A stretch of 64,000 bases of DNA from Megaustenia siamemsis (lineage: Eukaryota; Mollusca; Gastropoda; Stylommatophora; Ariophantidae). Position 1 is the first letter of the stretch, and each line of letters opens with the position of its first letter. The translations under genes were made by a program, and so were the position numbers. Below the pieces are notes generated by a model that saw nothing but the letters and a program-made list of their open reading frames with translations, had not been told where the DNA came from and did no database searches. The stretch is taken from contig JAVIAB010000092.1 of NCBI GenBank assembly GCA_032433765.1, positions 106,508,279 to 106,572,278 of the forward strand, given 5' to 3'. Positions 1,246 through 60,379 of this stretch are shown one piece after another.

Positions 1246-1251
1246 CACGTG
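1246..1251. repeat. 6-bp target site duplication, left copy (CACGTG)
   Basis: CACGTG immediately precedes the terminal AGTAGTATAC of the inserted element and recurs immediately after its other end (14129-14134). A 6-bp duplication is the known signature of Polinton/Maverick insertion. The sequence is itself palindromic, so the duplication is weaker evidence alone than together with the interrupted LINE. Confidence 0.8.
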
Positions 1252-1316
1252 AGTAGTATACAAGGGTCCATTTGAATATATTATTTGGCCCGTAAATTAA
1301 CAAAGATATATAGTAG

Positions 1317-1331
1317 GCGCGCGGCGCGCCT
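1317..1331. repeat. GC-rich subterminal palindrome (left)
   Basis: GGCGCGC G GCGCGCC forms a perfect 7-bp stem with a one-base centre, in otherwise AT-rich sequence, about 65 bp from the end of the element. The mirror copy lies at about 14051-14065. Such subterminal palindromes can be protein-binding or replication signals; no function is shown here. Confidence 0.55.
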
Positions 1332-1539
1332 AATGTACTGTAGGCGCAGGGGGAGTTAACCGTGACATTTCGTGTCGGGATGTTGACCTTTAGTCCAGGT
1401 GTCCCCGGAAGGACCCTGTTTATGTCTGGTGTGGCCTGGCTTTGGAGCTCTTGGTGTACTTGAGCGATAGTGATAGGTTAGTAGATTATACAACATCAAT
1501 GAAAAACGATCAATATAAAACAGAAGACAAAAGATATAT

Positions 1540-1555
1540 TTTATTCTTTTATTAT
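1540..1555 (-). terminator. Poly(A) signals of the left polymerase gene
   Basis: Complement of the two overlapping AATAAA hexamers seen in the right arm at 13828-13841, about 200 bp past the stop codon. Both arms preserve them. Confidence 0.5.
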
Positions 1556-1754
1556 CTCAATAGGTGTATAACATACAGTGGATATTATATAACATTACAA
1601 ACATATTCAGTACATTGAGTAAATATATAGTACAAGGATAACAATTATTTATAGCTATGTAGTTGGGTGTCTGCTTAGCTCTATGTCATAAATGAAGCAT
1701 AAGGGGTGAAACTGTTAGAGATTGCTGGGTAGTCTAAGCTGGTAGTGTAAAGAG

Positions 1755-4700
1755 TTAAATATCTAGAGGCGTAGTCGAGACGTTATCATCAGCTACCTTT
1801 CTTTTTATATAGAAATAGGAAAGAGCATTTCTTGTTTGACTGTAGGAAAATATGGAATTATTTAAGACTTTGAAACCTACATTTTTCCCACCCTTGGCCT
1901 TTTGCGTGGCGAGAACCTCTAAAAACATATCTTTATCTAATTTGTTGTGTTGCTTGCTTAGCCCTTTACAACTGATTTTATCGTAATCCCCACTACAATG
2001 GTACGTCTTACTACATAAGCTAACAAGAGCTGTCCCTTCGTACTCTAGTTTAAAAAGCCCAGGCGTTCGTTTGGTGTACGCTTTAACACCCTTACAGTTT
2101 ATACAGTCTATTTTGCTAGTATGCGCATCGCAAAACTCGGCAGGAAACCAGTCTTTATATACACTATTAAACTCATCCCGCAGACCTGACTTAACTATGT
2201 CCTCTAGCTTAGGTGCGCTTAAGGCTAAGTATAAACTATCAGTATCTGTTTCACATAACTGAAAGTTGGACCTATCTACAAACTTATCTAAGAACTCGAA
2301 ATAAAAATCTAACATACGAAGTTTTGCATATTGATAGACGAAGAAACCGATTGTAGGGGCAAGTCCCAAACAGTTTTCTTTTTCTCCATCTCAATTTCAA
2401 AAAGATCCTCCCCTATTTCAGTCATCTTTTTAAACCGGGAACTATTAATCATTTTCGATATCTCACCCCCCTGAACGTACGAGACAGCGCTATGATTGGC
2501 CTTATTGGTTAGAGTCTTCCCGTAGGCTGAGTTTCCTAAGAGCTTCATCGTATCGCTTACTATAGATTGATTCTCGTCTAGATCACCAGCCCTCCTAGCG
2601 TCAGAAACCATTTCGCCAAACTTTCTAAAACAACTAGACGGTTGATATTCTATCACTTGATAAATTTTTGTTACCACCAATCCATGGTCTAAATACCATT
2701 TTAACAGTGGCGTTGCCAACAAAATTTTTTCCCCGACATAACTACCTATTAGGGTGCGACGAGGGGTTGACAACAAGTTATGTTTGAAGGCATATTCACC
2801 CATAAACGGGCCAATATCAGCACGCGTGACGTCAATATTTTTGAAAATTGGAGTCATCTCACTGAAATGTTCCTTCAGACGGTCGGGGACGTGTAGATCA
2901 CATTCCACTAAACCAAAACATGTCCCATCTGAAACAGAAGCCAGAATCTGTTTATCACTGAGAGGGAGCCCTTCTTTAGAGTAAGAGGGTCTAGCTCTAG
3001 GGATGGCTTTAGAAAGGAAAGCCCTAATGGTTGGGTCAGACTTTTTCAGAGCCTGAAACTCACATTCCCACATAACTTCTACTGGAACTTTTACCTCCTC
3101 GGTTAGGTAGGTGTGTATCTCACATGTTTTTTCAAACAGCTCGAACAAGGGCTTATTATTAACAGGGTTTCTATCTTTATCTTTGGTGAGGGGACAGTCT
3201 TTGTGACCATGGTACAGACAACCATGAAAATTGTAGCCTCTTCTATTGGATTTATCCCACCCATCCACAGGGATATTTCTAGCACCTAAGCGAAACTCCC
3301 TCCCGTTAAACTGAGTTTTCAACTCCACCCCTTTTTGGTGGGCGACCCACGTTAACCACTCTCTACTTTGTTGGACATAATAGTTATCTTTTTCGACCCT
3401 AAACCCGGTCTCCATTCTTCTAATAATTGGGTAATCTGTTGGCATTGGGTTCATCAGAGCCCAAAGATACAACGCGTTGGCATCGTAACCTTGGATGGAT
3501 TTGACTACCTTTCCGCCCCTAATAAGCGTTTTGTCTACCTCGTGATACCTATGGAAAATTATAGAGGGACCCCCAACGATATTATCTCTAATCATTTTGT
3601 GTAGACTCGCCTGTTTGCTCGAACATAAACTAAACATTACACCCCTATCAACGGTCTTGAAAAGATACTTTAAACAAACACCCGGAACCGAAATGGCGTC
3701 TTTAAAACAGTCTACACCCCGCTCCCCATAAAAGCGAACCTGCTGCGCCAAGGCTTCTAAAAAGGGGACTACATCTTTGTTGTTATACCACACCAAAAAG
3801 TCCCTAAGTGTGGTCATGTTATTGTCCTGCCATACCTTTTTGCACAGAGCGTACTCTTCCTTGGAAATATTGGAATTTTTTAACGACGAATAAAACGCTT
3901 CGTGTGGGGGTAGTTCTGTCTCCTCCAACTTTTGGGGTCGTCTATATATTCATAACAAAAGTAACCCTTTGTCTCACTAATCTTATAAGCGGCCAGATAT
4001 TTACTATAGCTAAACACGGGGGCTAGATAGTTTACTATAACTAAGAATTTTAGATTCGGCGTTGCAATACACATAAAGTTATTGTTTCTTTTAACTATAA
4101 ACTTGAACGGTTTTGGTACTTTGTAGTCTACGTCCATTTTATCTTCCTCTTCTTCTTCTTCTTCTTCTTCTTCTTCTTCTTCTTCTTCTTCTTCTTCTTC
4201 ACCCACTTGGGCAGTGGCATCCATGAAGTGCTTTATTAAATAAGGTTTAATGACGTTGACGTCATATTTCCCCGAGTTAAACCCTATTACTGGAAGCTCT
4301 TTTAAATACTCATCAAACCTAACTACTATCTTGTCTTTATTCAGAGCATGGAGTTGAGTAAAAATACTTTCAAACCGAGCTCGCAACAACGAGTATGCCT
4401 TAGCAGCTATACCAGTGAGATAATCAACCATCTGACTAACTAAAACCTGTGGGTCACCCTTCGCTATGAAGCATTTTGGGGCCTCCCACCCAGGGACATT
4501 TGACGCTATAGAGCAGGAGAGGGGTACGTGTTTAGCTACAAAGGTAGTCGAGTGCGTCTCTTTGGGAACATTCCTACTATCAAAGTAGCATTCATAATCG
4601 AATGTCGCCCTGAATGGGTAAATAAAACACTCTGGAGTACTGATCCCTTCAGCGCTGATCGCGTCCCATACACTTTCAGGTGAAGAATAAACACCACCTT

Positions 4701-6093
4701 TATATGTCTCTACAGCCATATCCCCATTGCAAGTTTTTTCGTGCCTATCCATACGCCCAAACTTTTTCCACAATTTCCCACATTTTCCACAAGAAAAGCT
4801 TTTACTAGCCCTGGAAAGATCGTTTATATAAAAGAAGTGGTTTTTGTAAAGTAAAAGACGGAGAGTTTCACTATAACTACTGCCACTTCTCAGGACAATA
4901 CGCAAGGATTGTTGAGAATCAAACTCAAAAATATCTATGTTTATTGAAAAACAACTTTCTAAGAGAGACATTTCAGCAAGAGTTACACCGTGAAAGTTAC
5001 TTAACTTTAGAGACGGGTTAAACTGTTTGAAAAGTAGTCTCGAAACCTTCCTAACATTAGTATTTGAAGTTCCTCGATAGACAGCTAGACAACGGAAGAA
5101 GCAGAGATTATCATTGTAAACTTTAGAATTGGAGTCGTTTTGAAGGATATTAATACCATGATTTGATGCAATGTAGGGTGGGATATCTATCAGACACCCT
5201 ATAGGATAATCTTGAAGTTTATAAATATAAACACTCGTACTGACTAATGATTCTAAGGTATATTTGGTTGTCTCCCTGTTTTTATTTGCATACCCTAATA
5301 TATCACTTTCATTTAATCTATTGTCAAATGTTTCAAAATCATTTCTGTTGTTAACTAACAAGGGTTTGTCTAACCCTGTCGCGTTATTCGAGCTGGCGTG
5401 AAAGTAACGCAATCCCTGTGTCTCCCTATGTCTTAAAACTAGATGATGACTATAATTCACCTTGAAACGCTTTTTCTGGGCTAGAAAAATTGGGTTTACA
5501 AGGGTCTTCCAATCTATAGGAGTATCAGGTTGATGAAATATAGTGTATGTGTCCATGTATTTGGTCCTACGTTCATGTGTTCTAATAGCTAACCAGTTGT
5601 TCTTATATATCTTCTTAATATCTTGAGGTAACTTATTTAAAGAGTCTATTTCATTAATAAGTCTTGGTCTCTTTGAGAGCTCTTGAGTCGAACTCGTTAC
5701 TGTCCGCTTGCGTGAGGTTGTCGATACAAGTGGGTCTGCTGGAGTTGATCGTGTTGAGGTGTCCACAGCTATGGCATGGTTAGCAAGATGCACTCGCAGA
5801 TGGCTTGCGCCAGTAAAGCTTTGTTGGCAGATATGGCAGATATGTGGATTAACACCGGTCTCTTTTGAAAGTACGTGATCTGTTGACACAGGAGTTGGTG
5901 ATGCTGGAACTACTGATACAAGAGATGCAGGATGCTCTGTCTTGATATGTTTGGCAAGATTGTCAGCTCTATTATATACTCGTTCACAAACATCACATTT
6001 GTATTCCTGACGCCCATGTACACTAGCAACGTGTCGTTTTAGGTCCCGGCTCCGGGTGAAAGTTTTGGAGCAGAGATGACAAGTGTTAGACAT
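1755..6093 (-). pseudogene. Left-arm copy: C2H2 / OTU-like / protein-primed-type family B DNA polymerase, two frameshifts
   Basis: Inverted duplicate of the gene at 9290-13626. The start is the ATG at 6091-6093, just after a splice acceptor, in preference to an upstream in-frame ATG that lies inside the presumed 5' UTR intron. The frame is open from 6093 to about 3930 and covers three C2H2 fingers, the OTU-like region, a C2HC finger, Exo I, Exo II and the poly-Glu run. One C is missing from a C-run near 3937, relative to the other arm. The second frame (3928 to about 2309) holds Exo III, Pol A and the NSAYG motif. A missing A near 2353 moves to the third frame (to 1755) with the TDTDS catalytic motif. 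This copy is intact across the junction where the right copy is broken. Both shifts are single-base homopolymer differences, so real decay and assembly error are both possible. Domain details are given under the right copy. Confidence 0.85.
4151..4200 (-). repeat. GAA/TTC microsatellite encoding poly-Glu
   Basis: Run of TTC (GAA on the coding strand), about two dozen codons, between Exo II and Exo III of the polymerase. The right-arm counterpart (about 11182-11235) has one triplet fewer, so the arms diverge here by slippage. Confidence 0.9.
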
Positions 6094-6337
6094 CTGTAGA
6101 AAAGAAATTGAAACATTACAACTAAAGAGTAAAGAACAGTAAACATTACAAGAAAAGTAAACAACAAGATACACAAACTATCGAAATTAGGTTACAAAAG
6201 TAACACGTGGATGCTAAAAAACCAACTTATCGAAAATAGGTTACTAAAATAACACGTGGATACTAAACAACCATCTTATCGAAAACAGGTTACTAAAGTA
6301 ACATACTATAATGTTAAAGAACTAAGATAACACTTAC
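6094..6337 (-). other. Probable 5' UTR intron of the left polymerase gene
   Basis: On the minus strand the donor is GTAAGT following CATAAAAA, and the acceptor TTTCTTTTCTACAG ends one base before the ATG at 6093. Mirror of 9046-9289. Confidence 0.55.
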
Positions 6338-6423
6338 TTTTTATGTGTTTGAAGGCACGAGACACGTCCGGCGGCAACAACTGTAAGCGAAAGTCTGATT
6401 AGAAGCTTCACAGTCGCGTTATG

Positions 6424-6434
6424 TATATATACGC
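6424..6434 (-). promoter_or_regulatory. TATA box of the left polymerase gene
   Basis: The minus strand reads GGCGTATATATACATAACGC about 90 bp upstream of the splice donor. The same motif is kept in the right arm. No other core element was identified with confidence. Confidence 0.45.
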
Positions 6435-6598
6435 CAGAAACACCGGAAGTGTTACTAAAAATAGAACTGACCGCTGATTCAATACCGGAAGTGTTACTAA
6501 AAATAGCTTTTGACCGCTGACGTGATGCCCGTGGAGTTTCTAAAAATAGATTTTGACCTATGATGCAATACCAGGCAATTTTATGATAGTTACGCCCC

Positions 6599-7870
6599 TT
6601 GACCCTTTATGAGGGGACGCCCATGAAACTGTTAGAAATAGTAAATTTACACTCTAGGGTTACTCAAAACTTTATTTTAGTCATCCACATAGCAAAAATT
6701 TGCTTAAAAAACACTTTTATGGTTGTTACCCCCTTGTCCATTTTTGGCGGTTACGCCCATGAAACTGTTAAAAATAGTAAATTTAACATATAGACATACC
6801 CCAAACTTATATTAAGCATCCCCATATCAAGAATTTACATAAAAACAACGTTTGAAATTACTACCCCTGTACCCATTTTTGGTGGTTACGCCCATGAAAC
6901 TGTTAAAAATAGTAAATTTAACATATAGACATACCCCAAACTTTATATTTAGCATCCCCGTATCAAGAAGTTACATAAAAACAACTTTTGAAATTACTAC
7001 CCCTGTACCCATTTTTGGCGGTTACGCCCACGAAACTGTTAAAAATAGTCAATTTACACTCTAGACATATCCCAAACTTTATATTAAGCATCCCCATATC
7101 AAGAATTTACATAAAAATCACTTTTGAAATTACTACCCCTGTACCCATTTTTGGCGGTTACGCCCATGAAACTGTTAAAAATAGTCAATTTAACATCTAG
7201 ACATACCCCAAACTTTATATTAAGCATCCCGATATCAAGAAGTTACATAAAAATCACTTTTGAAATTACTACCCCTGTACCCATTTTTGGCGGTTACGCC
7301 CATGAAACTGTTAAAAATAGTAAATTTAACATATAGACATACCCCAAACTTTATATTAAGCATCCCCATATCAAGAATTTGCATAAAAACAACGTTTGAA
7401 ATTACTACCCCTGTACCCATTTTTGGCGGTTACGCCCATGAAATCGATAAAAAAATGAAATGTACACTCTAAACTTACCCCAGATGTTATTTTAGACATC
7501 CCCGTAGCAAGAATTTACATAAAAATCACTTTTGAAATTACTACCCTGTACCCAGTTTTGGCGGTTACACCCATGAAACTGTTAAAAATAGTCAATTTAA
7601 CATATAGACATACCCCAAACTTTATATTAAGCATCCCCGTATCAAGAATTTACATAAAAATCACTTTTGAAATTACTACCCCTGTACCCATTTTTGGCGG
7701 TTACGCCCATGAATTCGATAAAAAATTGAAATTTAACATCTAGACATACCCCAAACTTTATATTAAGCATCCCCGTATCAAGAATTTACATAAAAACAAC
7801 TTTTGAAATTACTACCCCTGTACCCATTTTTGGCGGTAACGCCCATGAAATCGATAAAAAATTGAAATTT
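6599..7870 (+). repeat. 136-bp tandem repeats with GGCG-GTTA-CGCC hairpin
   Basis: The core GGCGGTTACGCCCATGAAA recurs at 6746, 6881, 7017, 7153, 7289, 7425, 7560, 7696 and 7832, spaced 135-136 bp, with a degenerate first unit near 6610. Each core can form a short GGCG/CGCC hairpin. About four units lie in the mirrored arm and the rest in the central spacer. Small open frames of 60-70 codons here repeat with the unit and do not look like genes. Confidence 0.9.
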
Positions 7871-8081
7871 AACCTATTGGTATACCTCAAACATAATATT
7901 TGACACGCCCATGTATCAAATTTGCCTGAAAAATCAATAAAAAATTAGTAGTATAGATCTAGTGATAGTACCTTTGAAAGTCCTTCCAGCCGCACATAAT
8001 TCCTTATATAAATAGTCTACCCGTACATGGAAGCACATTTTTTGGTGCGGTTTTTCCTTATATGAGAGTCTTCCGGTCAAT
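7871..8081. other. Unique centre of the palindromic element
   Basis: About 200 bp with no mirror partner and no tandem unit. It holds two TATA-like stretches (CCTTATATAAATAG near 8002 and TTCCTTATATGAG near 8054). It could be the loop of a fold-back or a promoter region. No gene is seen. Confidence 0.6.
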
Positions 8082-8946
8082 GGGCGTTACCGCCAAAAAT
8101 GGGTACAGGGGTAGTAATTTCAAAAGTGATTTTTATGTAACTTCTTGATATCGGGATGCTTAATATAAAGTTTGGGGTATGTCTAGATGTTAAATTGACT
8201 ATTTTTAACAGTTTCATGGGCGTAACCGCCAAAAATGGGTACAGGGGTAGTAATTTCAAAAGTGATTTTTATGTAAATTCTTGATATGGGGATGCTTAAT
8301 ATAAAGTTTGGGATATGTCTAGAGTGTAAATTGACTATTTTTAACAGTTTCGTGGGCGTAACCGCCAAAAATGGGTACAGGGGTAGTAATTTCAAAAGTT
8401 GTTTTTATGTAACTTCTTGATACGGGGATGCTAAATATAAAGTTTGGGGTATGTCTATATGTTAAATTTACTATTTTTAACAGTTTCATGGGCGTAACCG
8501 CCAAAAATGGGTACAGGGGTAGTAATTTCAAACGTTGTTTTTATGTAAATTCTTGATATGGGGATGCTTAATATAAGTTTGGTGTATGTCTATATGTTAA
8601 ATTTACTATTTTTAACAGTTTCATGGGCGTAACCGCCAAAAATGGACAAGGGGGTAACAACCATAAAAGTGTTTTTTAAGCAAATTTTTGCTATATGGAT
8701 GACTAAAATAAAGTTTTGAGTAACCCTAGAGTGTAAATTTACTATTTCTAACAGTTTCATGGGCGTCCCCTCATAAAGGGTCAAGGGGCGTAACTATCAT
8801 AAAATTGCCTGGTATTGCATCATAGGTCAAAATCTATTTTTAGAAACTCCACGGGCATCACGTCAGCGGTCAAAAGCTATTTTTAGTAACACTTCCGGTA
8901 TTGAATCAGCGGTCAGTTCTATTTTTAGTAACACTTCCGGTGTTTC

Positions 8947-8960
8947 TGGCGTATATATAC
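8947..8960 (+). promoter_or_regulatory. TATA box of the right polymerase gene
   Basis: GGCGTATATATACATAACGC lies about 90 bp upstream of a good splice donor (9046) and about 340 bp upstream of the chosen ATG. Its exact mirror lies in the left arm. Confidence 0.45.
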
Positions 8961-9045
8961 ATAACGCGACTGTGAAGCTTCTAATCAGACTTTCGCTTAC
9001 AGTTGTTGCCGCCGGACGTGTCTCGTGCCTTCAAACACATAAAAA

Positions 9046-9289
9046 GTAAGTGTTATCTTAGTTCTTTAACATTATAGTATGTTACTTTAGTAACCTGTTT
9101 TCGATAAGATGGTTGTTTAGTATCCACGTGTTATTTTAGTAACCTATTTTCGATAAGTTGGTTTTTTAGCATCCACGTGTTACTTTTGTAACCTAATTTC
9201 GATAGTTTGTGTATCTTGTTGTTTACTTTTCTTGTAATGTTTACTGTTCTTTACTCTTTAGTTGTAATGTTTCAATTTCTTTTCTACAG
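9046..9289 (+). other. Probable 5' UTR intron of the right polymerase gene
   Basis: The donor is GTAAGTG at 9046. A pyrimidine-rich tract ends in TTTTCTACAG at 9289, one base before the ATG. The 244 bp hold an in-frame ATG at 9209 whose encoded residues (a hydrophobic, Cys-rich stretch) look unlike the zinc fingers that follow, which supports splicing. Confidence 0.55.
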
Positions 9290-10672
9290 ATGTCTAACAC
9301 TTGTCATCTCTGCTCCAAAACTTTCACCCGGAGCCGGGACCTAAAACGACACGTTGCTAGTGTACATGGGCGTCAGGAATACAAATGTGATGTTTGTGAA
9401 CGAGTATATAATAGAGCTGACAATCTTGCCAAACATATCAAGACAGAGCATCCTGCATCTCTTGTATCAGTAGTTCCAGCATCACCAACTCCTGTGTCAA
9501 CAGATCACGTACTTTCAAAAGAGACCGGTGTTAATCCACATATCTGCCATATCTGCCAACAAAGCTTTACTGGCGCAAGCCATCTGCGAGTGCATCTTGC
9601 TAACCATGCCATAGCTGTGGACACCTCAACACGATCAACTCCAGCAGACCCACTTGTATCGACAACCTCACGCAAGCGGACAGTAAAGAGTTCGACTCAA
9701 GAGCTCTCAAAGAGACCAAGACTTATTAATGAAATAGACTCTTTAAATAAGTTACCTCAAGATATTAAGAAGATATATAAGAACAACTGGTTAGCTATTA
9801 GAACACATGAACGTAGGACCAAATACATGGACACATACACTATATTTCATCAACCTGATACTCCTATAGATTGGAAGACCCTTGTAAACCCAATTTTTCT
9901 AGCCCAGAAAAAGCGTTTCAAGGTGAATTATAGTCATCATCTAGTTTTAAGACATAGGGAGACACAGGGATTGCGTTACTTTCACGCCAGCTCGAATAAC
10001 GCGATAGGGTTAGACAAACCCTTGTTAGTTAACAACAGAAATGATTTTGAAACATTTGTCAATAGATTAAATGAAAGTGATATATTAGGGTATGCAAATA
10101 AAAACAGGGAGACAACCAAATATACCTTAGAATCATTAGTCAGTACGAGTGTTTATATTTATAAACTTCAAGATTATCCTATAGGGTGTCTGATAGATAT
10201 CCCACCCTACATTGCATCAAATCATGGTATTAATATCCTTCAAAACGACTCCAATTCTAAAGTTTACAATGATAATCTCTGCTTCTTCCGTTGTCTAGCT
10301 GTCTATCGAGGAACTTCAAATACTAATGTTAGGAAGGTTTCGAGACTACTTTTCAAACAGTTTAACCCGTCTCTAAAGTTAAGTAACTTTCACGGTGTAA
10401 CTCTTGCTGAAATGTCTCTCTTAGAAAGTTGTTTTTCAATAAACATAGATATTTTTGAGTTTGATTCTCAACAATCCTTGCGTATTGTCCTGAGAAGTGG
10501 CAGTAGTTATAGTGAAACTCTCCGTCTTTTACTTTACAAAAACCACTTCTTTTATATAAACGATCTTTCCAGGGCTAGTAAAAGCTTTTCTTGTGGAAAA
10601 TGTGGGAAATTGTGGAAAAAGTTTGGGCGTATGGATAGGCACGAAAAACTTGCAATGGGGATATGGCTGTAG
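9290..10672 (+). CDS. N-terminal part of polymerase polyprotein: C2H2 fingers and OTU-like domain (right arm, ends in frameshift)
   Basis: Begins at the ATG right after the splice acceptor (MSNTCHLC). Residues about 5-27, 34-56 and 86-108 are three C2H2 fingers (CxxC-x12-HxxxH/HxxxxH). After a Ser/Thr-rich linker comes a region with NDNLCFFRCL (Cys about 331) and LYKNHFFYI (His about 419). This matches the spacing and flavour of the catalytic Cys and His of OTU cysteine proteases (family motif DGNCLFR...NHY). A fourth CxxC finger (FSCGKCGKLW) follows. Near 10645 a run of five A replaces the six A of the left arm, so the frame ends 21 bases later, while the polymerase frame restarts at an overlapping ATG at 10663. 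Enzyme activity of the OTU-like part is inference. Such N-terminal extensions would sit beside the replication machinery in the nucleus. Confidence 0.75.
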   Translation: MSNTCHLCSKTFTRSRDLKRHVASVHGRQEYKCDVCERVYNRADNLAKHIKTEHPASLVSVVPASPTPVSTDHVLSKETGVNPHICHICQQSFTGASHLRVHLANHAIAVDTSTRSTPADPLVSTTSRKRTVKSSTQELSKRPRLINEIDSLNKLPQDIKKIYKNNWLAIRTHERRTKYMDTYTIFHQPDTPIDWKTLVNPIFLAQKKRFKVNYSHHLVLRHRETQGLRYFHASSNNAIGLDKPLLVNNRNDFETFVNRLNESDILGYANKNRETTKYTLESLVSTSVYIYKLQDYPIGCLIDIPPYIASNHGINILQNDSNSKVYNDNLCFFRCLAVYRGTSNTNVRKVSRLLFKQFNPSLKLSNFHGVTLAEMSLLESCFSINIDIFEFDSQQSLRIVLRSGSSYSETLRLLLYKNHFFYINDLSRASKSFSCGKCGKLWKKFGRMDRHEKLAMGIWL

Positions 10673-13626
10673 AGACATATAAAGGTGGTGTTTATTCTTC
10701 ACCTGAAAGTGTATGGGACGCGATCAGCGCTGAAGGGATCAGTACTCCAGAGTGTTTTATTTACCCATTCAGGGCGACATTCGATTATGAATGCTACTTT
10801 GATAGTAGGAATGTTCCCAAAGAGACGCACTCGACTACCTTTGTAGCTAAACACGTACCCCTCTCCTGCTCTATAGCGTCAAATGTCCCTGGGTGGGAGG
10901 CCCCAAAATGCTTCATAACGAAGGGTGACCCACAGGTTTTAGTTAGTCAGATGGTTGATTATCTCACTGGTATAGCTGCTAAGGCATACTCGTTGTTGCG
11001 AGCTCGGTTTGAAAGTATTTTTACTCAACTCCATGCTCTGAATAAAGACAAGATAGTAGTTAGGTTTGATGAGTATTTAAAAGAGCTTCCAGTAATAGGG
11101 TTTAACTCGGGGAAATATGACGTCAACGTCATTAAACCTTATTTAATAAAGCACTTCATGGATGCCACTGCCCAAGTGGGTGAAGAAGAAGAAGAAGAAG
11201 AAGAAGAAGAAGAAGAAGAAGAAGAAGAAGAGGAAGATAAAATGGACGTAGACTACAAAGTACCAAAACCGTTCAAGTTTATAGTTAAAAGAAACAATAA
11301 CTTTATGTGTATTGCAACGCCGAATCTAAAATTCTTAGTTATAGTAAACTATCTAGCCCCCGGGTTTAGCTATAGTAAATATCTGGCCGCTTATAAGATT
11401 AGTGAGACAAAGGGTTACTTTTGTTATGAATATATAGACGACCCCCAAAAGTTGGAGGAGACAGAACTACCCCCACACGAAGCGTTTTATTCGTCGTTAA
11501 AAAATTCCAATATTTCCAAGGAAGAGTACGCTCTGTGCAAAAAGGTATGGCAGGACAATAACATGACCACACTTAGGGACTTTTTGGTGTGGTATAACAA
11601 CAAAGATGTAGTCCCCTTTTTAGAAGCCTTGGCGCAGCAGGTTCGCTTTTATGGGGAGCGGGGTGTAGACTGTTTTAAAGACGCCATTTCGGTTCCGGGT
11701 GTTTGTTTAAAGTATCTTTTCAAGACCGTTGATAGGGGTGTAATGTTTAGTTTATGTTCGAGCAAACAGGCGAGTCTACACAAAATGATTAGAGATAATA
11801 TCGTTGGGGGTCCCTCTATAATTTTCCATAGGTATCACGAGGTAGACAAAACGCTTATTAGGGGCGGAAAGGTAGTCAAATCCATCCAAGGTTACGATGC
11901 CAACGCGTTGTATCTTTGGGCTCTGATGAACCCAATGCCAACAGATTACCCAATTATTAGAAGAATGGAGACCGGGTTTAGGGTCGAAAAAGATAACTAT
12001 TATGTCCAACAAAGTAGAGAGTGGTTAACGTGGGTCGCCCACCAAAAAGGGGTGGAGTTGAAAACTCAGTTTAACGGGAGGGAGTTTCGCTTAGGTGCTA
12101 GAAATATCCCTGTGGATGGGTGGGATAAATCCAATAGAAGAGGCTACAATTTTCATGGTTGTCTGTACCATGGTCACAAAGACTGTCCCCTCACCAAAGA
12201 TAAAGATAGAAACCCTGTTAATAATAAGCCCTTGTTCGAGCTGTTTGAAAAAACATGTGAGATACACACCTACCTAACCGAGGAGGTAAAAGTTCCAGTA
12301 GAAGTTATGTGGGAATGTGAGTTTCAGGCTCTGAAAAAGTCTGACCCAACCATTAGGGCTTTCCTTTCTAAAGCCATCCCTAGAGCTAGACCCTCTTACT
12401 CTAAAGAAGGGCTCCCTCTCAGTGATAAACAGATTCTGGCTTCTGTTTCAGATGGGACATGTTTTGGTTTAGTGGAATGTGATCTACACGTCCCCGACCG
12501 TCTGAAGGAACATTTCAGTGAGATGACTCCAATTTTCAAAAATATTGACGTCACGCGTGCTGATATTGGCCCGTTTATGGGTGAATATGCCTTCAAACAT
12601 AACTTGTTGTCAACCCCTCGTCGCACCCTAATAGGTAGTTATGTCGGGGAAAAAATTTTGTTGGCAACGCCACTGTTAAAATGGTATTTAGACCATGGAT
12701 TGGTGGTAACAAAAATTTATCAAGTGATAGAATATCAACCGTCTAGTTGTTTTAGAAAGTTTGGCGAAATGGTTTCTGACGCTAGGAGGGCTGGTGATCT
12801 AGACGAGAATCAATCTATAGTAAGCGATACGATGAAGCTCTTAGGAAACTCAGCCTACGGGAAGACTCTAACCAATAAGGCCAATCATAGCGCTGTCTCG
12901 TACGTTCAGGGGGGTGAGATATCGAAAATGATTAATAGTTCCCGGTTTAAAAAGATGACTGAAATAGGGGAGGATCTTTTTGAAATTGAGATGGAGAAAA
13001 AGAAAACTGTTTGGGACTTGCCCCTACAAATCGGTTTCTTCGTCTATCAATATGCAAAACTTCGTATGTTAGATTTTTATTTCGAGTTCTTAGATAAGTT
13101 TGTAGATATGTCCAACTTTCAGTTATGTGAAACAGATACTGATAGTTTATACTTAGCCTTAAGCGCACCTAAGCTAGAGGACATAGTTAAGTCAGGTCTG
13201 CGGGATGAGTTTAATAGTGTATATAAAGACTGGTTTCCTGCCGAGTTTTGCGATGCGCATACTAGCAAAATAGACTGTATAAACTGTAAGGGTGTTAAAG
13301 CGTACACCAAACGAACGCCTGGGCTTTTTAAACTAGAGTACGAAGGGACAGCTCTTGTTAGCTTATGTAGTAAGACGTACCATTGTAGTGGGGATTACGA
13401 TAAAATCAGTTGTAAAGGGCTAAGCAAGCAACACAACAAATTAGATAAAGATATGTTTTTAGAGGTTCTCGCCACGCAAAAGGCCAAGGGTGGGAAAAAT
13501 GTAGGTTTCAAAGTCTTAAATAATTCCATATTTTCCTACAGTCAAACAAGAAATGCTCTTTCCTATTTCTATATAAAAAGAAAGGTAGCTGATGATAACG
13601 TCTCGACTACGCCTCTAGATATTTAA
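10663..13626 (+). CDS. Family B DNA polymerase, protein-primed type (right arm, catalytic part)
   Basis: 987 codons containing the full exonuclease and polymerase core. Exo I is FDYECYF (D41, E43), Exo II is GFNSGKYD (N148, D153) and Exo III is WYNNKDV. A run of about two dozen Glu follows Exo II. Pol A is GYDANALYLW (D412), the central motif is KLLGNSAYG (N729) and Pol C is ETDTDSLYL (D825, D827), followed by a KLEYEG lysine motif. Between Pol A and the central motif lies a Cys/His insertion (HGCLYHGHKDC) of the kind seen in Polinton and related viral polymerases. Motif order and spacing indicate a protein-primed replicative polymerase. All catalytic residues are present. The start used here is an overlapping ATG made available by the upstream single-base loss; in the left arm this ATG is an internal Met of one continuous frame. 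Translation of this part alone is uncertain. Confidence 0.85.
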   Translation: MAVETYKGGVYSSPESVWDAISAEGISTPECFIYPFRATFDYECYFDSRNVPKETHSTTFVAKHVPLSCSIASNVPGWEAPKCFITKGDPQVLVSQMVDYLTGIAAKAYSLLRARFESIFTQLHALNKDKIVVRFDEYLKELPVIGFNSGKYDVNVIKPYLIKHFMDATAQVGEEEEEEEEEEEEEEEEEEDKMDVDYKVPKPFKFIVKRNNNFMCIATPNLKFLVIVNYLAPGFSYSKYLAAYKISETKGYFCYEYIDDPQKLEETELPPHEAFYSSLKNSNISKEEYALCKKVWQDNNMTTLRDFLVWYNNKDVVPFLEALAQQVRFYGERGVDCFKDAISVPGVCLKYLFKTVDRGVMFSLCSSKQASLHKMIRDNIVGGPSIIFHRYHEVDKTLIRGGKVVKSIQGYDANALYLWALMNPMPTDYPIIRRMETGFRVEKDNYYVQQSREWLTWVAHQKGVELKTQFNGREFRLGARNIPVDGWDKSNRRGYNFHGCLYHGHKDCPLTKDKDRNPVNNKPLFELFEKTCEIHTYLTEEVKVPVEVMWECEFQALKKSDPTIRAFLSKAIPRARPSYSKEGLPLSDKQILASVSDGTCFGLVECDLHVPDRLKEHFSEMTPIFKNIDVTRADIGPFMGEYAFKHNLLSTPRRTLIGSYVGEKILLATPLLKWYLDHGLVVTKIYQVIEYQPSSCFRKFGEMVSDARRAGDLDENQSIVSDTMKLLGNSAYGKTLTNKANHSAVSYVQGGEISKMINSSRFKKMTEIGEDLFEIEMEKKKTVWDLPLQIGFFVYQYAKLRMLDFYFEFLDKFVDMSNFQLCETDTDSLYLALSAPKLEDIVKSGLRDEFNSVYKDWFPAEFCDAHTSKIDCINCKGVKAYTKRTPGLFKLEYEGTALVSLCSKTYHCSGDYDKISCKGLSKQHNKLDKDMFLEVLATQKAKGGKNVGFKVLNNSIFSYSQTRNALSYFYIKRKVADDNVSTTPLDI

Positions 13627-13827
13627 CTCTTTACACTACCAGCTTAGACTACCCAGCAATCTCTAACAGTTTCACCCCTTATGCTTCATTTATGACATAG
13701 AGCTAAGCAGACACCCAACTACATAGCTATAAATAATTGTTATCCTTGTACTATATATTTACTCAATGTACTGAATATGTTTGTAATGTTATATAATATC
13801 CACTGTATGTTATACACCTATTGAGAT

Positions 13828-13841
13828 AATAAAAGAATAAA
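13828..13841 (+). terminator. Two AATAAA poly(A) signals of the right polymerase gene
   Basis: AATAAA at 13828-13833 and 13836-13841, about 205 bp after the TAA at 13624-13626. Cleavage would fall before the GC-rich subterminal palindrome. Confidence 0.6.
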
Positions 13842-14050
13842 ATATATCTTTTGTCTTCTGTTTTATATTGATCGTTTTTCATTGATGTTGTATAATCTAC
13901 TAACCTATCACTATCGCTCAAGTACACCAAGAGCTCCAAAGCCAGGCCACACCAGACATAAACAGGGTCCTTCCGGGGACACCTGGACTAAAGGTCAACA
14001 TCCCGACACGAAATGTCACGGTTAACTCCCCTGCGCCTACAGTACATTAG

Positions 14051-14065
14051 GCGCGCCGCGCGCCT
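14051..14065. repeat. GC-rich subterminal palindrome (right)
   Basis: GGCGCGC C GCGCGCC, mirror image of the copy at 1317-1331. Confidence 0.55.
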
Positions 14066-14128
14066 ACTATATATCTTTGTTAATTTACGGGCCAAATAAT
14101 ATATTCAAATGGACCCTTGTATACTACT

Positions 14129-14134
14129 CACGTG
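14129..14134. repeat. 6-bp target site duplication, right copy (CACGTG)
   Basis: Follows the terminal ACTACT. Joining the flanks at this duplication restores continuity with the related LINE near 55379 (CTTTCAC...GCATA.GTAAGG). Confidence 0.8.
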
Positions 14135-17332: not shown

Positions 17333-20300
17333 CAACTAGGAGAGACACATGACAAGCAAGCATCAGTAGCTAGTTATTCAACTGTTGGGAGAGACACATG
17401 ACAAGCAAGCATCAGTAGGTAGTTATTCAACTGTTGGGAGAGACACATGACAAGCAAGCATCAGTAGGTAGTTATTCAACTGTTGGGAGAGACACATGAC
17501 AAGCAAGCATCAGTAGGTAGTTATTCAACTGTTGGGAGAGACACATGACAAGCAAGCATCAGTAGCTAGTTATTCAACTGTTGGGAGAGACACATGACAA
17601 GCAAGCATCAGTAGCTAGTTATTCAACTGTTGGGAGAGACACATGACAAGAAAGCATCAGTAGGAAGTTATTCAACTGTTGGGAGAGACACATGACAAGA
17701 AAGCATCAGTAGGAAGTTATTCAACTGTTGGGAGAGACACATGACAAGAAAGCATCAGTAGGAAGTTATTCAACTGTTGGGAGAGACACATGACAAGAAA
17801 GCATCAGTAGGTAGTTATTCAACTGTTGGGAGAGACACATGACAAGCAAGCATCAGTAGCTAGTTATTCAACTGTTGGGAGAGACACATGACAAGAAAGC
17901 ATCAGTAGGTAGTTATTCAACTGTTGGGAGAGACACATGACAAGCAAGCATCAGTAGGTAGTTATTCAACTGTTGGGAGAGACACATGACAAGAAAGCAT
18001 CAGTAGGAAGTTATTCAACTGTTGGGAGAGACACATGACAAGAAAGCATCAGTAGGTAGTTATTCAACTGTGGGGAGAGACACATGACAAGCAAGCATCA
18101 GTAGGTAGTTATTCAACTGTTGGGAGAGACACATGACAAGAAAGCATCAGTAGGTAGTTATTCAACTGTTGGGAGAGACACATGACAACAAGCAAGCATC
18201 AGTAGGTAGTTATTCAACTGTTGGGAGAGACACATGACAAGAAGCATCAGTAGGTAGTTATTCAACTGTTGGGAGAGACACATGACAACAAGCAAGCATC
18301 AGTAGGTAGTTATTCAACTGTTGGGAGAGACACATGACAAGCAAGCATCAGTAGGTAGTTTTTCAACTGTTGGGAGAGACACATGACAACAAGCAAGCAT
18401 CAGTAGGTAGTTATTCAACTGTTGGGAGAGACACATGACAAGCAAGCATCAGTAGGTAGTTATTCAACTGTTGGGAGAGACACATGACAACAAGCAAGCA
18501 TCAGTAGGTAGTTATTCAACTGTTGGGAGAGACACATGACAACAAGCAAGCATCAGTAGGTAGTTATTCAACTGTTGGGAGAGACACATGACAAGCAAGC
18601 ATCAGTAGGTAGTTATTCAACTGTTGGGAGAGACACATGACAAGCAAGCATCAGTAGGTAGTTTTTCAACTGTTGGGAGAGACACATGACAAGCAAGCAT
18701 CAGTAGGTAGTTATTCAACTGTTGGGAGAGACACATGACAAGCAAGCATCAGTAGGTAGTTATTCAACTGTTGGGAGAGACACATGACAACAAGCAAGCA
18801 TCAGTAGGTAGTTATTCAACTGTTGGGAGAGACACATGACAAGCAAGCATCAGTAGGTAGTTATTCAACTGTTGGGAGAGACACATGACAAGCAAGCATC
18901 AGTAGGTAGTTATTCAACTGTTGGGAGAGACACATGACAAGCAAGCATCAGTAGCTAGTTATTCAACTGTTGGGAGATACACGTGACAAGAAAGCATCAG
19001 TAGGTAGTTATTCAACTGTTGGGAGAGACACATGACAAGCAAGCATCAGTAGGTAGTTATTCAACTGTTGGGAGAGACACATGACAAGCAAGCATCAGTA
19101 GAAAGTTATTCAACTGTTGGGAGAGACACATGACAAGAAAGCATCAGTAGGTAGTTATTCAACTGTTGGGAGAGACACATGACAAGCAAGCATCAGTAGG
19201 TAGTTATTCAACTGTTGGGAGAGACACATGACAAGAAAGCATCAGTAGGAAGTTATTCAACTGTTGGGAGAGACACATGACAAGCAAGCATCAGTAGGTA
19301 GTTATTCAACTGTTGGGAGAGACACATGACAAGAAAGCATCAGTAGGAAGTTATTCAACTGTTGGGAGAGACACATGACAACAAGCAAGCATCAGTAGGT
19401 AGTTATTCAACTGTTGGGAGAGACACATGACAACAAGCAAGCATCAGTAAGAAGTTATTCAACTGTTGGGAGAGACACATGACAAGAAAGTATCAGTAGG
19501 TAGTTATTCAACTGTTGGGAGAGACACATGACAACAAGCAAGCATCAGTAGGAAGTTATTCAACTGTTGGAAGAGACACATGACAAGCAAGCATCAGTAG
19601 GTAATTATTCAACTGTTGGGAGAGACACATGACAAGAAAGCATCAGTAGGTAGTTATTCAACTGTTGGGTGATACACATGACAACAAGCAAGCATCAGTA
19701 GGAAGCTATTCAACTGTTGGGAGAGACACATGACAAGAAAGCATCAGTAGGTAGTTATTCAACTCTTGGGAGAGACACATGACAAGCAAGCATCAGTAGT
19801 TAGTTATTCAACTGTTGGGAGAGACACTAGACAAGAAAGCATCAGTAGGTAGTTATTCAACTGTTGGGAGAGACACATGTCAACAAGCAAGCATCAGTAG
19901 GAAGTTATTCAACTGTTGGGAGAGACACATGACAAGAAAGCATCATTAGGTAGTTATTCAACTGTTGGGAGAGACACATGACAAGAAAGCATCAGTAGGT
20001 AGTTATTCAACTGTTGGGAGAGACACATGACAAGCAAGCATCAGTAGGTAGTTATTCAACTGTTGGGAGAGACACATGACAAGCAAGCATCAGTAGCTAG
20101 TTATTCAACTGTTGGGAGAGACACATGACAACAAGCAAGCATCAGTAGGAAGTTATTTAACTGTTGGGAGAGACACATGACAAGAAAGCATCAGTAGATA
20201 GTTATTCAACTGTTGGGAGAGACACATGACAACATGCAAGCATCAGTAGGAAGTTATTCAACTGTTGGAAGAGACACATGACAAGCAAGCATCAGTAGGT

Positions 20301-23300
20301 AGTTATTCAACTGTTGGGAGAGACACATGACAACAAGCAAGCATCAGTAGAAAGTTATTCAACTGTTGGGAGAGACACATGACAAGAAAGCATCAGTAGG
20401 TAGTTATTCAACTGTTGGGAGAGACACATGACAAGCAAGCATCAGTAGGTAGTTATTCAACTGTTGGGAGAGACACATGACAAGCAAGCATCAGTAGGTA
20501 GTTATTCAACTGTTGGGAGAGACACATGACAAGCAAGCATCAGTAGGTAGTTATTCAACTATTGGAAGAGACACATGACAAGCAAGCATCAGTAGCTAGT
20601 TATTCAACTGTTGGGAGAAACACATGACAAGAAAGCATCAGTAGGTAGTTATTCAACTTTTGGAAGAGACACATGACAAGCAAGCATCAGTAGGTAGTTA
20701 TTCAACTGTTGGGAGAGACACATGAGAACAAGCAAGCATCAGTAGGTAGTTATTCAACTGTTGGGAGACACATGACAAGCAAGCATCAGTAGGTAGTTAT
20801 TCAACTGTTGAGAGAGACACATGACAAGCAAGTATCAGTAGGTAGTTATTCAACTGTTGGGAGAGACACATGACAAGCAAGCATCAGTAGGTAGTTATTC
20901 AACTGTTGGGAGAGACACATGACAAGCAAGCATCAGTAGGTAGTTATTCAACTGTTGGGAGAGACACATGACAACAAGCAAGCATCAGTAGGTAGTTATT
21001 CAACTGTTGGGAGAGACACATGACAACAAGCAAGCATCAGTAGGTAGTTATTCAACTGTTGGGAGAGACACATGACAACAAGCAAGCATCAGTAGGTAGT
21101 TATTCAACTGTTGGGAGAGACACATGACAACAAGCAAGCATCAGTAGGTAGTTATTCAACTGTTGGGAGAGACACATGACAAGCAAGCATCAGTAGGTAG
21201 TTATTCAACTGTTGGGAGAGACACATGACAAGCAAGCATCAGTAGGTAGTTATTCAACTGTTGGGAGAGACACATGACAAGCAAGCATCAGTAGGTAGTT
21301 ATTCAACTGTTGGGAGAGACACATAACAAGCAAGCATCAGTAGGTAGTTATTCAACTGTTGGGAGAGACACATGACAAGCAAGCATCAGTAGGTAGTTAT
21401 TCAACTGTTGGGAGAGACACATGACAAGCAAGCATCAGTAGCTAGTTATTCAACTGTTGGGAGAGACACATGACAAGAAAGCATCAGTAGGAAGTTATTC
21501 AACTGTTGGGAGAGACACATGACAAGAAAGCATCAGTAGGTAGTTATTCAACTGTTGGGAGAGACACATGACAAGAAAGCATCAATATGAAGTTATTTAA
21601 CTGTTGGGAGAGACACATGACAAGAAAGCATCAGTAGGTATTTATTCAACTGTTGGGAGAGACACATGACAAGCAAGCATCAGTAGCTAGTTATTCAACT
21701 GTTGGGAGAGACACATGACAAGAAAGCATCAGTAGGTAGTTATTCAACTGTTGGGAGAGACACATGACAAGCAAGCATCAGTAGGAAGTTATTCAACTGT
21801 TGGAAGAGACACATGACAAGCAAGCATCAGTAGGTAGTTATTCAACTGTTGGGAGAGACACATGACAAGCAAGCATCAGTAGGTAGTTATTCAACTGTTG
21901 GGAGAGACACATGACAAGCAAGCATCAGTAGGTAGTTATTCAACTATTGGAAGAGACACATGACAAGCAAGCATCAGTAGCTAGTTATTCAACTGTTGGG
22001 AGAAACACATGACAAGAAAGCATCAGTAGGTAGTTATTCAACTTTTGGAAGAGACACATGACAAGCAAGCATCAGTAGGTAGTTATTCAACTGTTGGGAG
22101 AGACAGATGAGAACAAGCAAGCATCAGTAGGTAGTTATTCAACTGTTGGGAGACACATGACAAGCAAGCATCAGTAGGTAGTTATTCAACTGTTGGGAGA
22201 GACACATGACAAGCAAGTATCAGTAAGTAGTTATTCAACTATTGGGAGAGACACATGACAAGAAAGCATCAGTAGATAGTTATTCAACTGTTGGGAGAGA
22301 CACATGACAAGAAAGCATCAGTAGGTAGTTATTCATCTGTTGGGAGAGACACATGACAAGCAAGTATCAGTAGCTAGTTATTCAACTGTTGGGAGAAACA
22401 CATGACAAGAAAGCATCAGTAGCTAGTTATTCAACTGTTGGGAGAAACACATGACAAGAAAGCATCAGTAGGTAGTTATTCAACTATTGGAAGAGACACA
22501 TGACAAGTAAGCATCAGTAGGTAGTTATTCAACTGTTGGGAGAGACACATGAGAACAAGCAAGCATCAGTAGCTAGTTTTTCAACTGTTGGGAGAGACAC
22601 ATGACAACAAGCAAGCATCAGTAGGTAGTTATTCAACTGTTGGGAGAGACACATGACAAGAAAGAATCAGTAGGTAGTTATTCAACTGTTGGGAGAGACA
22701 CATGACAAGCAAGTATCAGTAGGTAGTTATTCAACTGTTGGGAGAGACACATGACAACAAGCAAGCATCAGTAGGTAGTTATTCAACTGTTGGGAGAGAC
22801 ACATGACAACAAGCAAGCATCAGTAGGTAGTTATTCAACTGTTGGGAGAGACACATGACAACAAGCAAGCATCAGTAGGTAGTTATTCAACTGTTGGGAG
22901 AGACACATGACAACAAGCAAGCATCAGTAGGTAGTTATTCAACTGTTGGGAGAGACACATGACAAGCAAGCATCAGTAGGTAGTTATTCAACTGTTGGGA
23001 GAGACACATGACAAGCAAGCATCAGTAGGTAGTTTTTCAACTGTTGGGAGAGACACATGACAAGCAAGCATCAGTAGGTAGTTATTCAACTGTTGGGAGA
23101 GACACATGACAAGCAAGCATCAGTAGGTAGTTATTCAACTGTTGGGAGAGACACATGACAACAAGCAAGCATCAGTAGGTAGTTATTCAACTGTTGGGAG
23201 AGACACATGACAAGCAAGCATCAGTAGGTAGTTATTCAACTGTTGGGAGAGACACATGACAAGCAAGCATCAGTAGGTAGTTATTCAACTGTTGGGAGAG

Positions 23301-26300
23301 ACACATGACAAGCAAGCATCAGTAGGTAGTTATTCAACTGTTGGGAGATACACATGACAAGCAAGCATCAGTAGGTAGTTATTCAACTGTTGGGAGAGAC
23401 ACATGACAAGCAAGCATCAGTAGGTAGTTATTCAACTGTTGGGAGAGACACATGACAAGCAAGCATCAGTAGAAAGTTATTCAACTGTTGGGAGAGACAC
23501 ATGACAAGAAAGCATCAGTAGGTAGTTATTCAACTGTTGGGAGAGACACATGACAAGCAAGCATCAGTAGGTAGTTATTCAACTGTTGGGAGAGACACAT
23601 GACAAGAAAGCATCAGTAGGAAGTTATTCAACTGTTGGGAGAGACACATGACAAGCAAGCATCAGTAGGTAGTTATTCAACTGTTGGGAGAGACACATGA
23701 CAAGAAAGCATCAGTAGGAAGTTATTCAACTGTTGGGAGAGACACATGACAACAAGCAAGCATCAGTAGGTAGTTATTCAACTGTTGGGAGAGACACATG
23801 ACAACAAGCAAGCATCAGTAAGAAGTTATTCAACTGTTGGGAGAGACACATGACAAGAAAGTATCAGTAGGTAGTTATTCAACTGTTGGGAGAGACACAT
23901 GACAACAAGCAAGCATCAGTAGGAAGTTATTCAACTGTTGGAAGAGACACATGACAAGCAAGCATCAGTAGGTAATTATTCAACTGTTGGGAGAGACACA
24001 TGACAAGAAAGCATCAGTAGGTAGTTATTCAACTGTTGGGTGATACACATGACAACAAGCAAGCATCAGTAGGAAGCTATTCAACTGTTGGGAGAGACAC
24101 ATGACAAGAAAGCATCAGTAGGTAGTTATTCAACTCTTGGGAGAGACACATGACAAGCAAGCATCAGTAGTTAGTTATTCAACTGTTGGGAGAGACACTA
24201 GACAAGAAAGCATCAGTAGGTAGTTATTCAACTGTTGGGAGAGACACATGTCAACAAGCAAGCATCAGTAGGAAGTTATTCAACTGTTGGGAGAGACACA
24301 TGACAAGAAAGCATCATTAGGTAGTTATTCAACTGTTGGGAGAGACACATGACAAGAAAGCATCAGTAGGTAGTTATTCAACTGTTGGGAGAGACACATG
24401 ACAAGCAAGCATCAGTAGGTAGTTATTCAACTGTTGGGAGAGACACATGACAAGCAAGCATCAGTAGCTAGTTATTCAACTGTTGGGAGAGACACATGAC
24501 AACAAGCAAGCATCAGTAGGAAGTTATTTAACTGTTGGGAGAGACACATGACAAGAAAGCATCAGTAGATAGTTATTCAACTGTTGGGAGAGACACATGA
24601 CAACATGCAAGCATCAGTAGGAAGTTATTCAACTGTTGGAAGAGACACATGACAAGCAAGCATCAGTAGGTAGTTATTCAACTGTTGGGAGAGACACATG
24701 ACAACAAGCAAGCATCAGTAGAAAGTTATTCAACTGTTGGGAGAGACACATGACAAGAAAGCATCAGTAGGTAGTTATTCAACTGTTGGGAGAGACACAT
24801 GACAAGCAAGCATCAGTAGGTAGTTATTCAACTGTTGGGAGAGACACATGACAAGCAAGCATCAGTAGGTAGTTATTCAACTGTTGGGAGAGACACATGA
24901 CAAGCAAGCATCAGTAGGTAGTTATTCAACTATTGGAAGAGACACATGACAAGCAAGCATCAGTAGCTAGTTATTCAACTGTGGGAGAAACACATGACAA
25001 GAAAGCATCAGTAGGTAGTTATTCAACTTTTGGAAGAGACACATGACAAGCAAGCATCAGTAGGTAGTTATTCAACTGTTGGGAGAGACACATGAGAACA
25101 AGCAAGCATCAGTAGGTAGTTATTCAACTGTTGGGAGACACATGACAAGCAAGCATCAGTAGGTAGTTATTCAACTGTTGAGAGAGACACATGACAAGCA
25201 AGTATCAGTAGGTAGTTATTCAACTGTTGGGAGAGACACATGACAAGCAAGCATCAGTAGGTAGTTATTCAACTGTTGGGAGAGACACATGACAAGCAAG
25301 CATCAGTAGGTAGTTATTCAACTGTTGGGAGAGACACATGACAACAAGCAAGCATCAGTAGGTAGTTATTCAACTGTTGGGAGAGACACATGACAACAAG
25401 CAAGCATCAGTAGGTAGTTATTCAACTGTTGGGAGAGACACATGACAACAAGCAAGCATCAGTAGGTAGTTATTCAACTGTTGGGAGAGACACATGACAA
25501 CAAGCAAGCATCAGTAGGTAGTTATTCAACTGTTGGGAGAGACACATGACAAGCAAGCATCAGTAGGTAGTTATTCAACTGTTGGGAGAGACACATGACA
25601 AGCAAGCATCAGTAGGTAGTTATTCAACTGTTGGGAGAGACACATGACAAGCAAGCATCAGTAGGTAGTTATTCAACTGTTGGGAGAGACACATAACAAG
25701 CAAGCATCAGTAGGTAGTTATTCAACTGTTGGGAGAGACACATGACAAGCAAGCATCAGTAGGTAGTTATTCAACTGTTGGGAGAGACACATGACAAGCA
25801 AGCATCAGTAGGTAGTTATTCAACTGTTGGGAGAGACACATGACAAGAAAGCATCAGTAGGAAGTTATTCAACTGTTGGGAGAGACACATGACAAGAAAG
25901 CATCAGTAGGTAGTTATTCAACTGTTGGGAGAGACACATGACAAGAAAGCATCAATATGAAGTTATTTAACTGTTGGGAGAGACACATGACAAGAAAGCA
26001 TCAGTAGGTATTTATTCAACTGTTGGGAGAGACACATGACAAGCAAGCATCAGTAGCTAGTTATTCAACTGTTGGGAGAGACACATGACAAGAAAGCATC
26101 AGTAGGTAGTTATTCAACTGTTGGGAGAGACACATGACAAGCAAGCATCAGTAGGTAGTTATTCAACTGTTGGGAGAGACACATGACAAGAAAGCATCAG
26201 TAGGAAGTTATTCAACTGTTGGGAGAGACACATGACAAGAAAGCATCAGTAGGTAGTTATTCAACTGTTGGGAGAGACACATGACAAGCAAGCATCAGTA

Positions 26301-60279: not shown

Positions 60280-60379
60280 CTGGGCACCAGCAGTAGATCA
60301 ATATTAAATAAAGTCTCAAACCAAATTAAACTAAACTCTATGGAACATATATGCATAATTAGTCTTATAAACAACTAAA

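Follow-up and report, generated by a model that had tools for sequence, protein, structure and literature searches.

A multi-copy family of fold-back, polymerase-only elements with Polinton-like ends in the genome of Megaustenia siamemsis

Is a mobile element whose two arms mirror each other almost perfectly an accident of one locus, or can such a dimer be the normal form of a family, and if so, how are its arms kept alike? This question is raised by positions 1252 to 14128 of a stretch of 64,000 nucleotides from the gastropod Megaustenia siamemsis (GenBank assembly GCA_032433765.1, contig JAVIAB010000092.1, positions 106,508,279 to 106,572,278 of the forward strand), here called the window. 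The fold-back element located there belongs to a multi-copy family and is neither a local accident nor an artefact. It is probably a Polinton-derived inverted dimer, in which the dimer is the normal form and one arm is remade from the other during replication, with an integrase probably supplied in trans.

The ends of the element carry AGTAGTATAC on the left and GTATACTACT on the right and thus read AGTAGT...ACTACT. The alignment of the two arms comprises 6,043 identities, 10 mismatches and 5 small insertions or deletions (indels), corresponding to 99.7% identity over about 6.05 kb each. The longest mirrored blocks (2,569, 1,587, and 1,003 nt) are all 100% complementary and the centre has a length of 776 nt; a mirrored arrangement by chance is out of the question. 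A preliminary description of this locus, made from the sequence alone, had proposed AG...CT ends, mirrored arms of 6.05 kb and a centre of about 0.78 kb, and both the alignment and the end positions bear out its coordinates. The centre and the inner parts of the arms contain 136-bp tandem repeats. On both sides the element is flanked by CACGTG (Table 1). This hexamer is palindromic, and in the window copy a 6-bp duplication would look the same as six additional bases of the inverted repeat; a target-site duplication inferred from this copy alone was therefore rejected.

Each arm contains one gene, which reads outward from the centre and encodes a phi29-like DNA polymerase B with a Vsr-like nuclease domain. 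In the window element the reading frame is broken in both arms, at different positions, by single-base differences, whether mutations or errors of the consensus; a frame of 987 amino acids is retained in one arm. A polymerase gene is present in both arms, as proposed, with an interrupted frame in each. All open reading frames (ORFs) of at least 100 amino acids (start codons ATG, GTG, and TTG) in the window element are pieces of this gene. No such ORF was found for an RVE-type integrase, for a packaging ATPase, an adenovirus-type protease or capsid proteins, or for a transposase of a cut-and-paste superfamily, so that the early impression of a polymerase without the other Polinton genes was correct.

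The key residues of the Vsr-like domain are invariant across 47 aligned proteins, the domain being incomplete in one of them. Pfam Vsr gave a weak match in two of 11 domain segments, and a PDB profile matched with an E-value of about 0.007. Vsr is absent among the fold matches listed for the polymerase, a kind of list that a single small domain can escape. The N-terminal ORF comprises a conserved D..C...H region, which by eye looks OTU-like; a Pfam search of the N-terminal region gave no OTU match. No relatives were found in viral contigs by searches with one protein and with an alignment (A1).

The host assembly (2.59 Gb, 155 contigs) was searched twice with the arm sequence. A loose first pass gave 5,189 and 3,901 candidates, respectively, which are not copy numbers, and each search yielded the best 40 scored matches among these. 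Among the matches listed, a converging partner was present for 62 of 73 distinct arm ends (31 pairs), which provided the further insertions with the same arms and 6-bp duplications that the preliminary description had named as a check. The paired elements span 5.1–14.4 kb as tabulated, with the right ends of C125 and C137c lying about 1 kb further out. Twelve elements, including that of the window, were compared in halves; all have mirrored arms, which are 98.7–99.8% alike (11 of them had been selected on the strength of two listed ends, and the right arm of C125 was compared without its outer part). Three ends that were unpaired in the first arm search were followed, and the second arm was reached in all three, with the outer end of the second arm of C49 not found in one further piece read. 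Of the 11 ends left unpaired by both searches, two were followed and led to a second arm, in one case with its outer end not found. In total, a second arm was present in 15 of 15 elements read inside, 11 of which were chosen as pairs; a one-armed copy with ordinary Polinton genes, which the preliminary description had set against its own proposal, was not among them.

A local rearrangement or an assembly fold-back of an ordinary Polinton would fit the near identity of the arms, and some of the arm differences are single-base indels in runs, resembling consensus errors. But 31 more insertions were found elsewhere, the arms bear different differences, and the ordinary Polintons form a separate lineage with polymerase identities to the fold-back elements of 38% and 34% in two segments. 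This explanation was rejected, as the other copies rule it out, and its probability is practically nil. One copy (L015/L016, contig C91) is composite: a second left end begins within its left arm, near 2.57 kb, which would fit the insertion of one copy into another and a later recombination.

Target-site duplications were analyzed in 32 elements with both flanks read. They are exact 6-bp duplications in 27 elements, with one mismatch in one, two mismatches in three and five mismatches in one; for this count L079, whose left end has an extra AGT, was shifted by three bases. As a control, the left and right flanks of different elements were compared, and these match exactly in 2 of 992 pairings. 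The preferred target is centred on CG, with C at position 3 in 20 and G at position 4 in 17 of the 27 duplications. CACGTG, which was found in two elements, is therefore close to the preferred target. It is the other family copies which decide that CACGTG is a true duplication, and the 6-bp duplication claimed for the window element is thus supported by them, while it stays ambiguous from the palindromic window copy alone.

The two arms of each element vary in lockstep. A tree was built from the first 2.4 kb of the arms, for which the median identity between elements is 96.8%. In 10 of 11 pairs it places the two arms of an element as sisters; in the exception, C1, they are separated only by the long branch of C8. 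In six full-length elements, the two-state, gap-free sites private to one element were found in both arms in 260 cases and in one arm in 28, and those shared between elements are concordant between the arms in 157 of 157 cases. Furthermore, in 66 segments of 500 alignment columns the difference within an element is below the smallest difference between elements in 58, equal to it in seven and larger in one. C8 is a symmetric derivative, whose two arms depart from the polymerase at one and the same position. The deletions in C47, C124, and C105, considered as symmetric proof of arm copying, were rejected, as they are single deletions through the centre and only C8 is symmetric.

Between elements the polymerase is under purifying selection. 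Using one arm from each of 11 elements (55 pairs), the ratio of nonsynonymous to synonymous substitution rates (dN/dS) has a median of 0.21 and ranges from 0.14 to 2.33, with a mean dN of 0.016 and a mean dS of 0.077; the maximum is probably an effect of small numbers, as the closest pair has seven differences. Within 10 elements, the differences between the arms comprise 28 nonsynonymous and 8 synonymous changes at a site ratio of 3.9 to 1 and thus look neutral. Frame-breaking differences occur in many arms and may be consensus errors. A selected, replicating lineage with identical arms, followed by drift after insertion, suggests that one arm is the template for both during replication.

The centre was analyzed for structures that could join the arms. 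In most copies shown, the arm end ...AAAAATT is followed by AGTAGTATA, a loop, TATACTACT and AATTTTT.... This centre is kept in 10 of 12 elements; the exact motif is present in nine of these 10, on both sides in five, and C91b has a one-base variant. In the window copy the motif is found on one side of the cassette only. At least part of the central 210 bases of the window element is matched in nine other elements. Three complete loops (161–199 nt) form more stable folds than their dinucleotide shuffles (z = −10.0, −6.1, and −3.6, RNA parameters), and five stretches of the arms as well as the outer terminus fold no better than shuffles (z = −1.3 to +1.1). The predicted structure of the three folded cassettes, one hairpin joining two mirror copies, corresponds at the sequence level to that of a rolling-hairpin system, and the cassette is reminiscent of the terminal hairpin of an ordinary Polinton.

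A fresh inverted duplication of a one-armed element at each integration would likewise make the two arms closest relatives, as seen in 10 of 11 pairs, and the cassette with its bordering terminal motifs might have arisen by the rejoining of an end; the dimer would then be a non-heritable by-product of insertion. Neither the central recurrence of at least part of the 210-bp centre in nine other elements nor the lack of one-armed copies among the 15 elements read, 11 of them picked as pairs, is in line with this, and it seems very unlikely.

Ordinary Polintons are present in the same genome, in which the A32-type ATPase family has 127 matches. One Polinton of 17.1 kb was examined in pieces and encodes a polymerase B (1,351 residues read), an integrase (rve, E-value 1.6e-9), an ATPase (Pox_A32, 3.3e-9) and a double jelly roll capsid protein (2.8e-58), together with a protease whose Peptidase_C5 match (6.6e-4) is just below the Pfam cut-off. 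Its ends are AGTAGTTGATCC and its duplication is TTCAGT. Among 11 ordinary Polintons, the 6-bp duplication is exact in eight and has one mismatch in one; all 11 start with AGTAGT, and three have nine bases in common with the fold-back ends. The first 266 bases of the examined Polinton form a near-perfect hairpin (z = −19.7, DNA parameters; L040:5295-5560, contig C143), which is bounded by AGTAGT and ACTACT. Of 80 matches listed, 40 are opposite-strand matches to about these first 266 bases, so that other Polinton copies share the hairpin. In addition, a phospholipase A2-like stretch (PF08398; L032:2259-3473) is located in the same open frame as the Polinton integrase.

The common ends and duplication length suggest that the fold-back elements are integrated in trans by the Polinton integrase. 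Alternatively, the family could be autonomous, with the Vsr-like nuclease of its polymerase making the 6-bp staggered insertion and no Polinton integrase required. The invariance of the nuclease residues and the lack of an integrase ORF of at least 100 amino acids in the window element would agree with this. However, integrase-bearing Polintons share the ends and the duplication length, and a Vsr-like stretch is likewise present in the one Polinton polymerase examined. Vsr enzymes introduce nicks at mismatches and are not known to act as integrases, which counts against autonomous integration as well. We regard it as distinctly unlikely.

For the Polinton-derived inverted dimer the following mechanism can be proposed. 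Two near-identical units of about 6.4 kb meet head to head in a short hairpin cassette, which is delimited by the terminal motif of the element itself, and a copy of the element would be replicated by its own phi29-type polymerase. The displaced strand could pair with itself from end to end, or synthesis might pass around a hairpin, either the central or a terminal one, in the manner of the parvoviral dimer intermediate, and both progeny arms would thus derive from a single arm. Insertion of the new copy would fall to an integrase that generates 6-bp duplications; its most likely source is the ordinary Polintons, whose enzyme would act in trans. The central hairpin would then represent a terminal hairpin trapped at the junction of the inverted dimer, and a possible role of the Vsr-like domain is to nick at the terminal motif or to resolve hairpins. 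Replication by a hairpin or strand switch is inferred from the arm-locked variation, the central hairpin cassette and the phi29-type fold. The fold-back, polymerase-only derivative of a Polinton which the preliminary description had envisaged is supported and seen as a multi-copy family; with the integrase and capsid genes missing, it is classed as Polinton-derived and not as a Polinton proper.

Several observations weigh against this mechanism. The arms of C124 are 99.75% alike over 2.4 kb, the same value as between C124 and C155b. The loops were cut at the motif, which alone gives 9–10 paired bases, so that their z values are somewhat flattered, and a long perfect stem end (24 bp) is found in C155b only. 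The outer ends have no hairpin (z = −1.3), unlike the ordinary Polinton, and the likeness between the cassette and the Polinton hairpin lies in structure and boundary motif, with no sequence likeness shown. A terminal protein was not identified. G is located at duplication position 4 in 17 of 27 fold-back elements vs. two of nine Polintons; the preferences are not clearly the same and are of no help to the idea of a shared integrase.

Finally, the host flank is mirrored past the end of the element in two of 32 copies (L092-L095; contigs C137 and C1), in the first over 1.31 kb with no mismatch and two gaps, in the second over about 100 bp with one mismatch, followed by a 98% direct copy of 594 bp of the left flank. 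Fold-back copying therefore also occurs in chromosomes and could contribute to the identity of the arms. This is what would be expected if replication were ordinary and the arms of inserted elements were homogenized by chromosomal gene conversion or fold-back repair, like those of sex-chromosome palindromes. The arm-locked sites do not decide here, because chromosomal conversion predicts them as well. Against it stand the purifying selection on what the arms share, with neutral-looking differences between them, and the 27 of 32 intact duplications, which indicate that copying seldom crosses the ends. Chromosomal conversion as the whole explanation is considered unlikely.

Taking the replicative dimer further, the family may tentatively be seen as a branch of the Polintons without capsid and integrase, with a permanent, heritable inverted dimer that templates itself via the central hairpin and parasitises the Polinton integrase, and with polymerase relatives in molluscs and echinoderms. 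The copy in the chromosome would then be a dimer intermediate made permanent, one arm would be rewritten from the other at each round of replication, and in the active lineage the two copies of the gene would not diverge. This wider view is somewhat less likely than not, and less probable than the dimer itself.

Table 1. Features of the fold-back element and its borders in the window.
Feature	Position	Strand	Basis
Left target-site duplication CACGTG	1246..1251	.	Exact 6-bp duplications in 27/32 elements
Outer terminal motif AGTAGTATAC, (AGT)2 Maverick-type end	1252..1261	+	Sequence; motif as in PMC8097293
Left inverted arm	1252..7303	+	Arm alignment
Polymerase C-terminal fragment ORF, left arm	1755..2369	-	ORF list
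Polymerase middle ORF, left arm, DNA_pol_B_2	2309..3928	-	ORF and domain match
N-terminal ORF, left arm, C2H2 fingers and exonuclease motifs	3880..6174	-	ORF and domain match
136-bp tandem array	6617..7900	+	Repeat scan
Centre without mirror partner in the window copy; one side of central cassette lost	7304..8079	.	
Inner terminal-motif copy AGTAGTATA, edge of central cassette	7947..7955	+	
Right inverted arm	8080..14128	-	Arm alignment
136-bp tandem array, right arm	8080..8766	-	Repeat scan
N-terminal ORF, right arm, C2H2 zinc fingers then conserved D..C...H region	9209..10672	+	
Right-arm polymerase B ORF of 987 aa with exonuclease and polymerase parts and a phi29-like fold	10663..13626	+	
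Vsr-like endonuclease domain, flanked by motifs A and B of the polymerase	11980..12387	+	
Outer terminal motif GTATACTACT	14119..14128	+	
Right target-site duplication CACGTG	14129..14134	.	

Elsewhere, much of the window is occupied by a 19-kb satellite (17339-36434) of about 385 copies of a 49-bp unit. Two arrays of closely similar 29-bp units are located at 42662-43920 and 45508-49029; several of their frames are open throughout, which results in long repetitive ORFs on both strands. By eye, reverse-transcriptase-like ORFs of non-LTR (long terminal repeat) retrotransposons were recognized at 37646-38985, 49838-51818, and 54998-55970. Additionally, an ORF on the minus strand (59987-60319) contains a glutaredoxin-like stretch, seen by eye only, and may belong to a host gene as one of its exons.

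Discussions of Polintons usually turn on whether the capsid is lost or kept. If the present reading is true, the boundary between transposon and virus would be relocated, as a lineage keeps the replicase alone and alters the geometry of its genome. Each insertion has two gene copies which seem to come from one template, so that every copy can by itself serve as a clock and as a test of the replication mechanism. How the ends of Polintons are copied in the cell, a point that is difficult to address with Polintons themselves, becomes testable from genome sequence. If the integrase is provided by ordinary Polintons, the two elements form a host-parasite pair within one genome. The preliminary description knew of no family with such a layout; in agreement, no publication on fold-back or polymerase-only Polintons was found by title and beginning of the abstract, with Repbase and most subscription journals lying outside this search.

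Vertebrate Mavericks are described as having (AGT)2//(ACT)2 ends and 6-bp target duplications (PMC8097293). With Polintons/Mavericks, whose ends are (AGT)2//(ACT)2 or (AG)3//(CT)3, the fold-back family shares the (AGT)2//(ACT)2 ends, the 6-bp duplications and a protein-primed family B polymerase with a phi29-like fold. It differs in that integrase, ATPase, protease, and capsid genes are missing and the inverted repeat spans all coding content. Moreover, in the polymerase of the window element (ORF 10663-13626) motifs A and B enclose the nuclease domain, whereas in the one Polinton read the Vsr-like stretch precedes the exonuclease (P0121).

Bidnaviruses are small viruses that replicate with a protein-primed polymerase B (PMC4061559). 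In contrast to the elements described here, they are single-stranded DNA viruses. To our knowledge, they are not fold-back or polymerase-only. Mitochondrial linear plasmids also carry a polymerase B and inverted ends, but they are extrachromosomal, and we know of no 6-bp target duplications in them.

In the dimer replicative form of parvoviruses, two genome copies are joined head to head by one terminal hairpin. Here, polymerase B replaces the nickase-helicase, the integrated state is the dimer, and there is no capsid gene. Foldback-type elements (FB, TU, Galileo, Tetris) resemble the present family in very long arms that make up most of the element, as found in the 12 elements read in halves and the three followed, and in tandem repeats. 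Galileo belongs to the P-element superfamily, whereas the fold-back family of M. siamemsis encodes a replicative polymerase in both arms.
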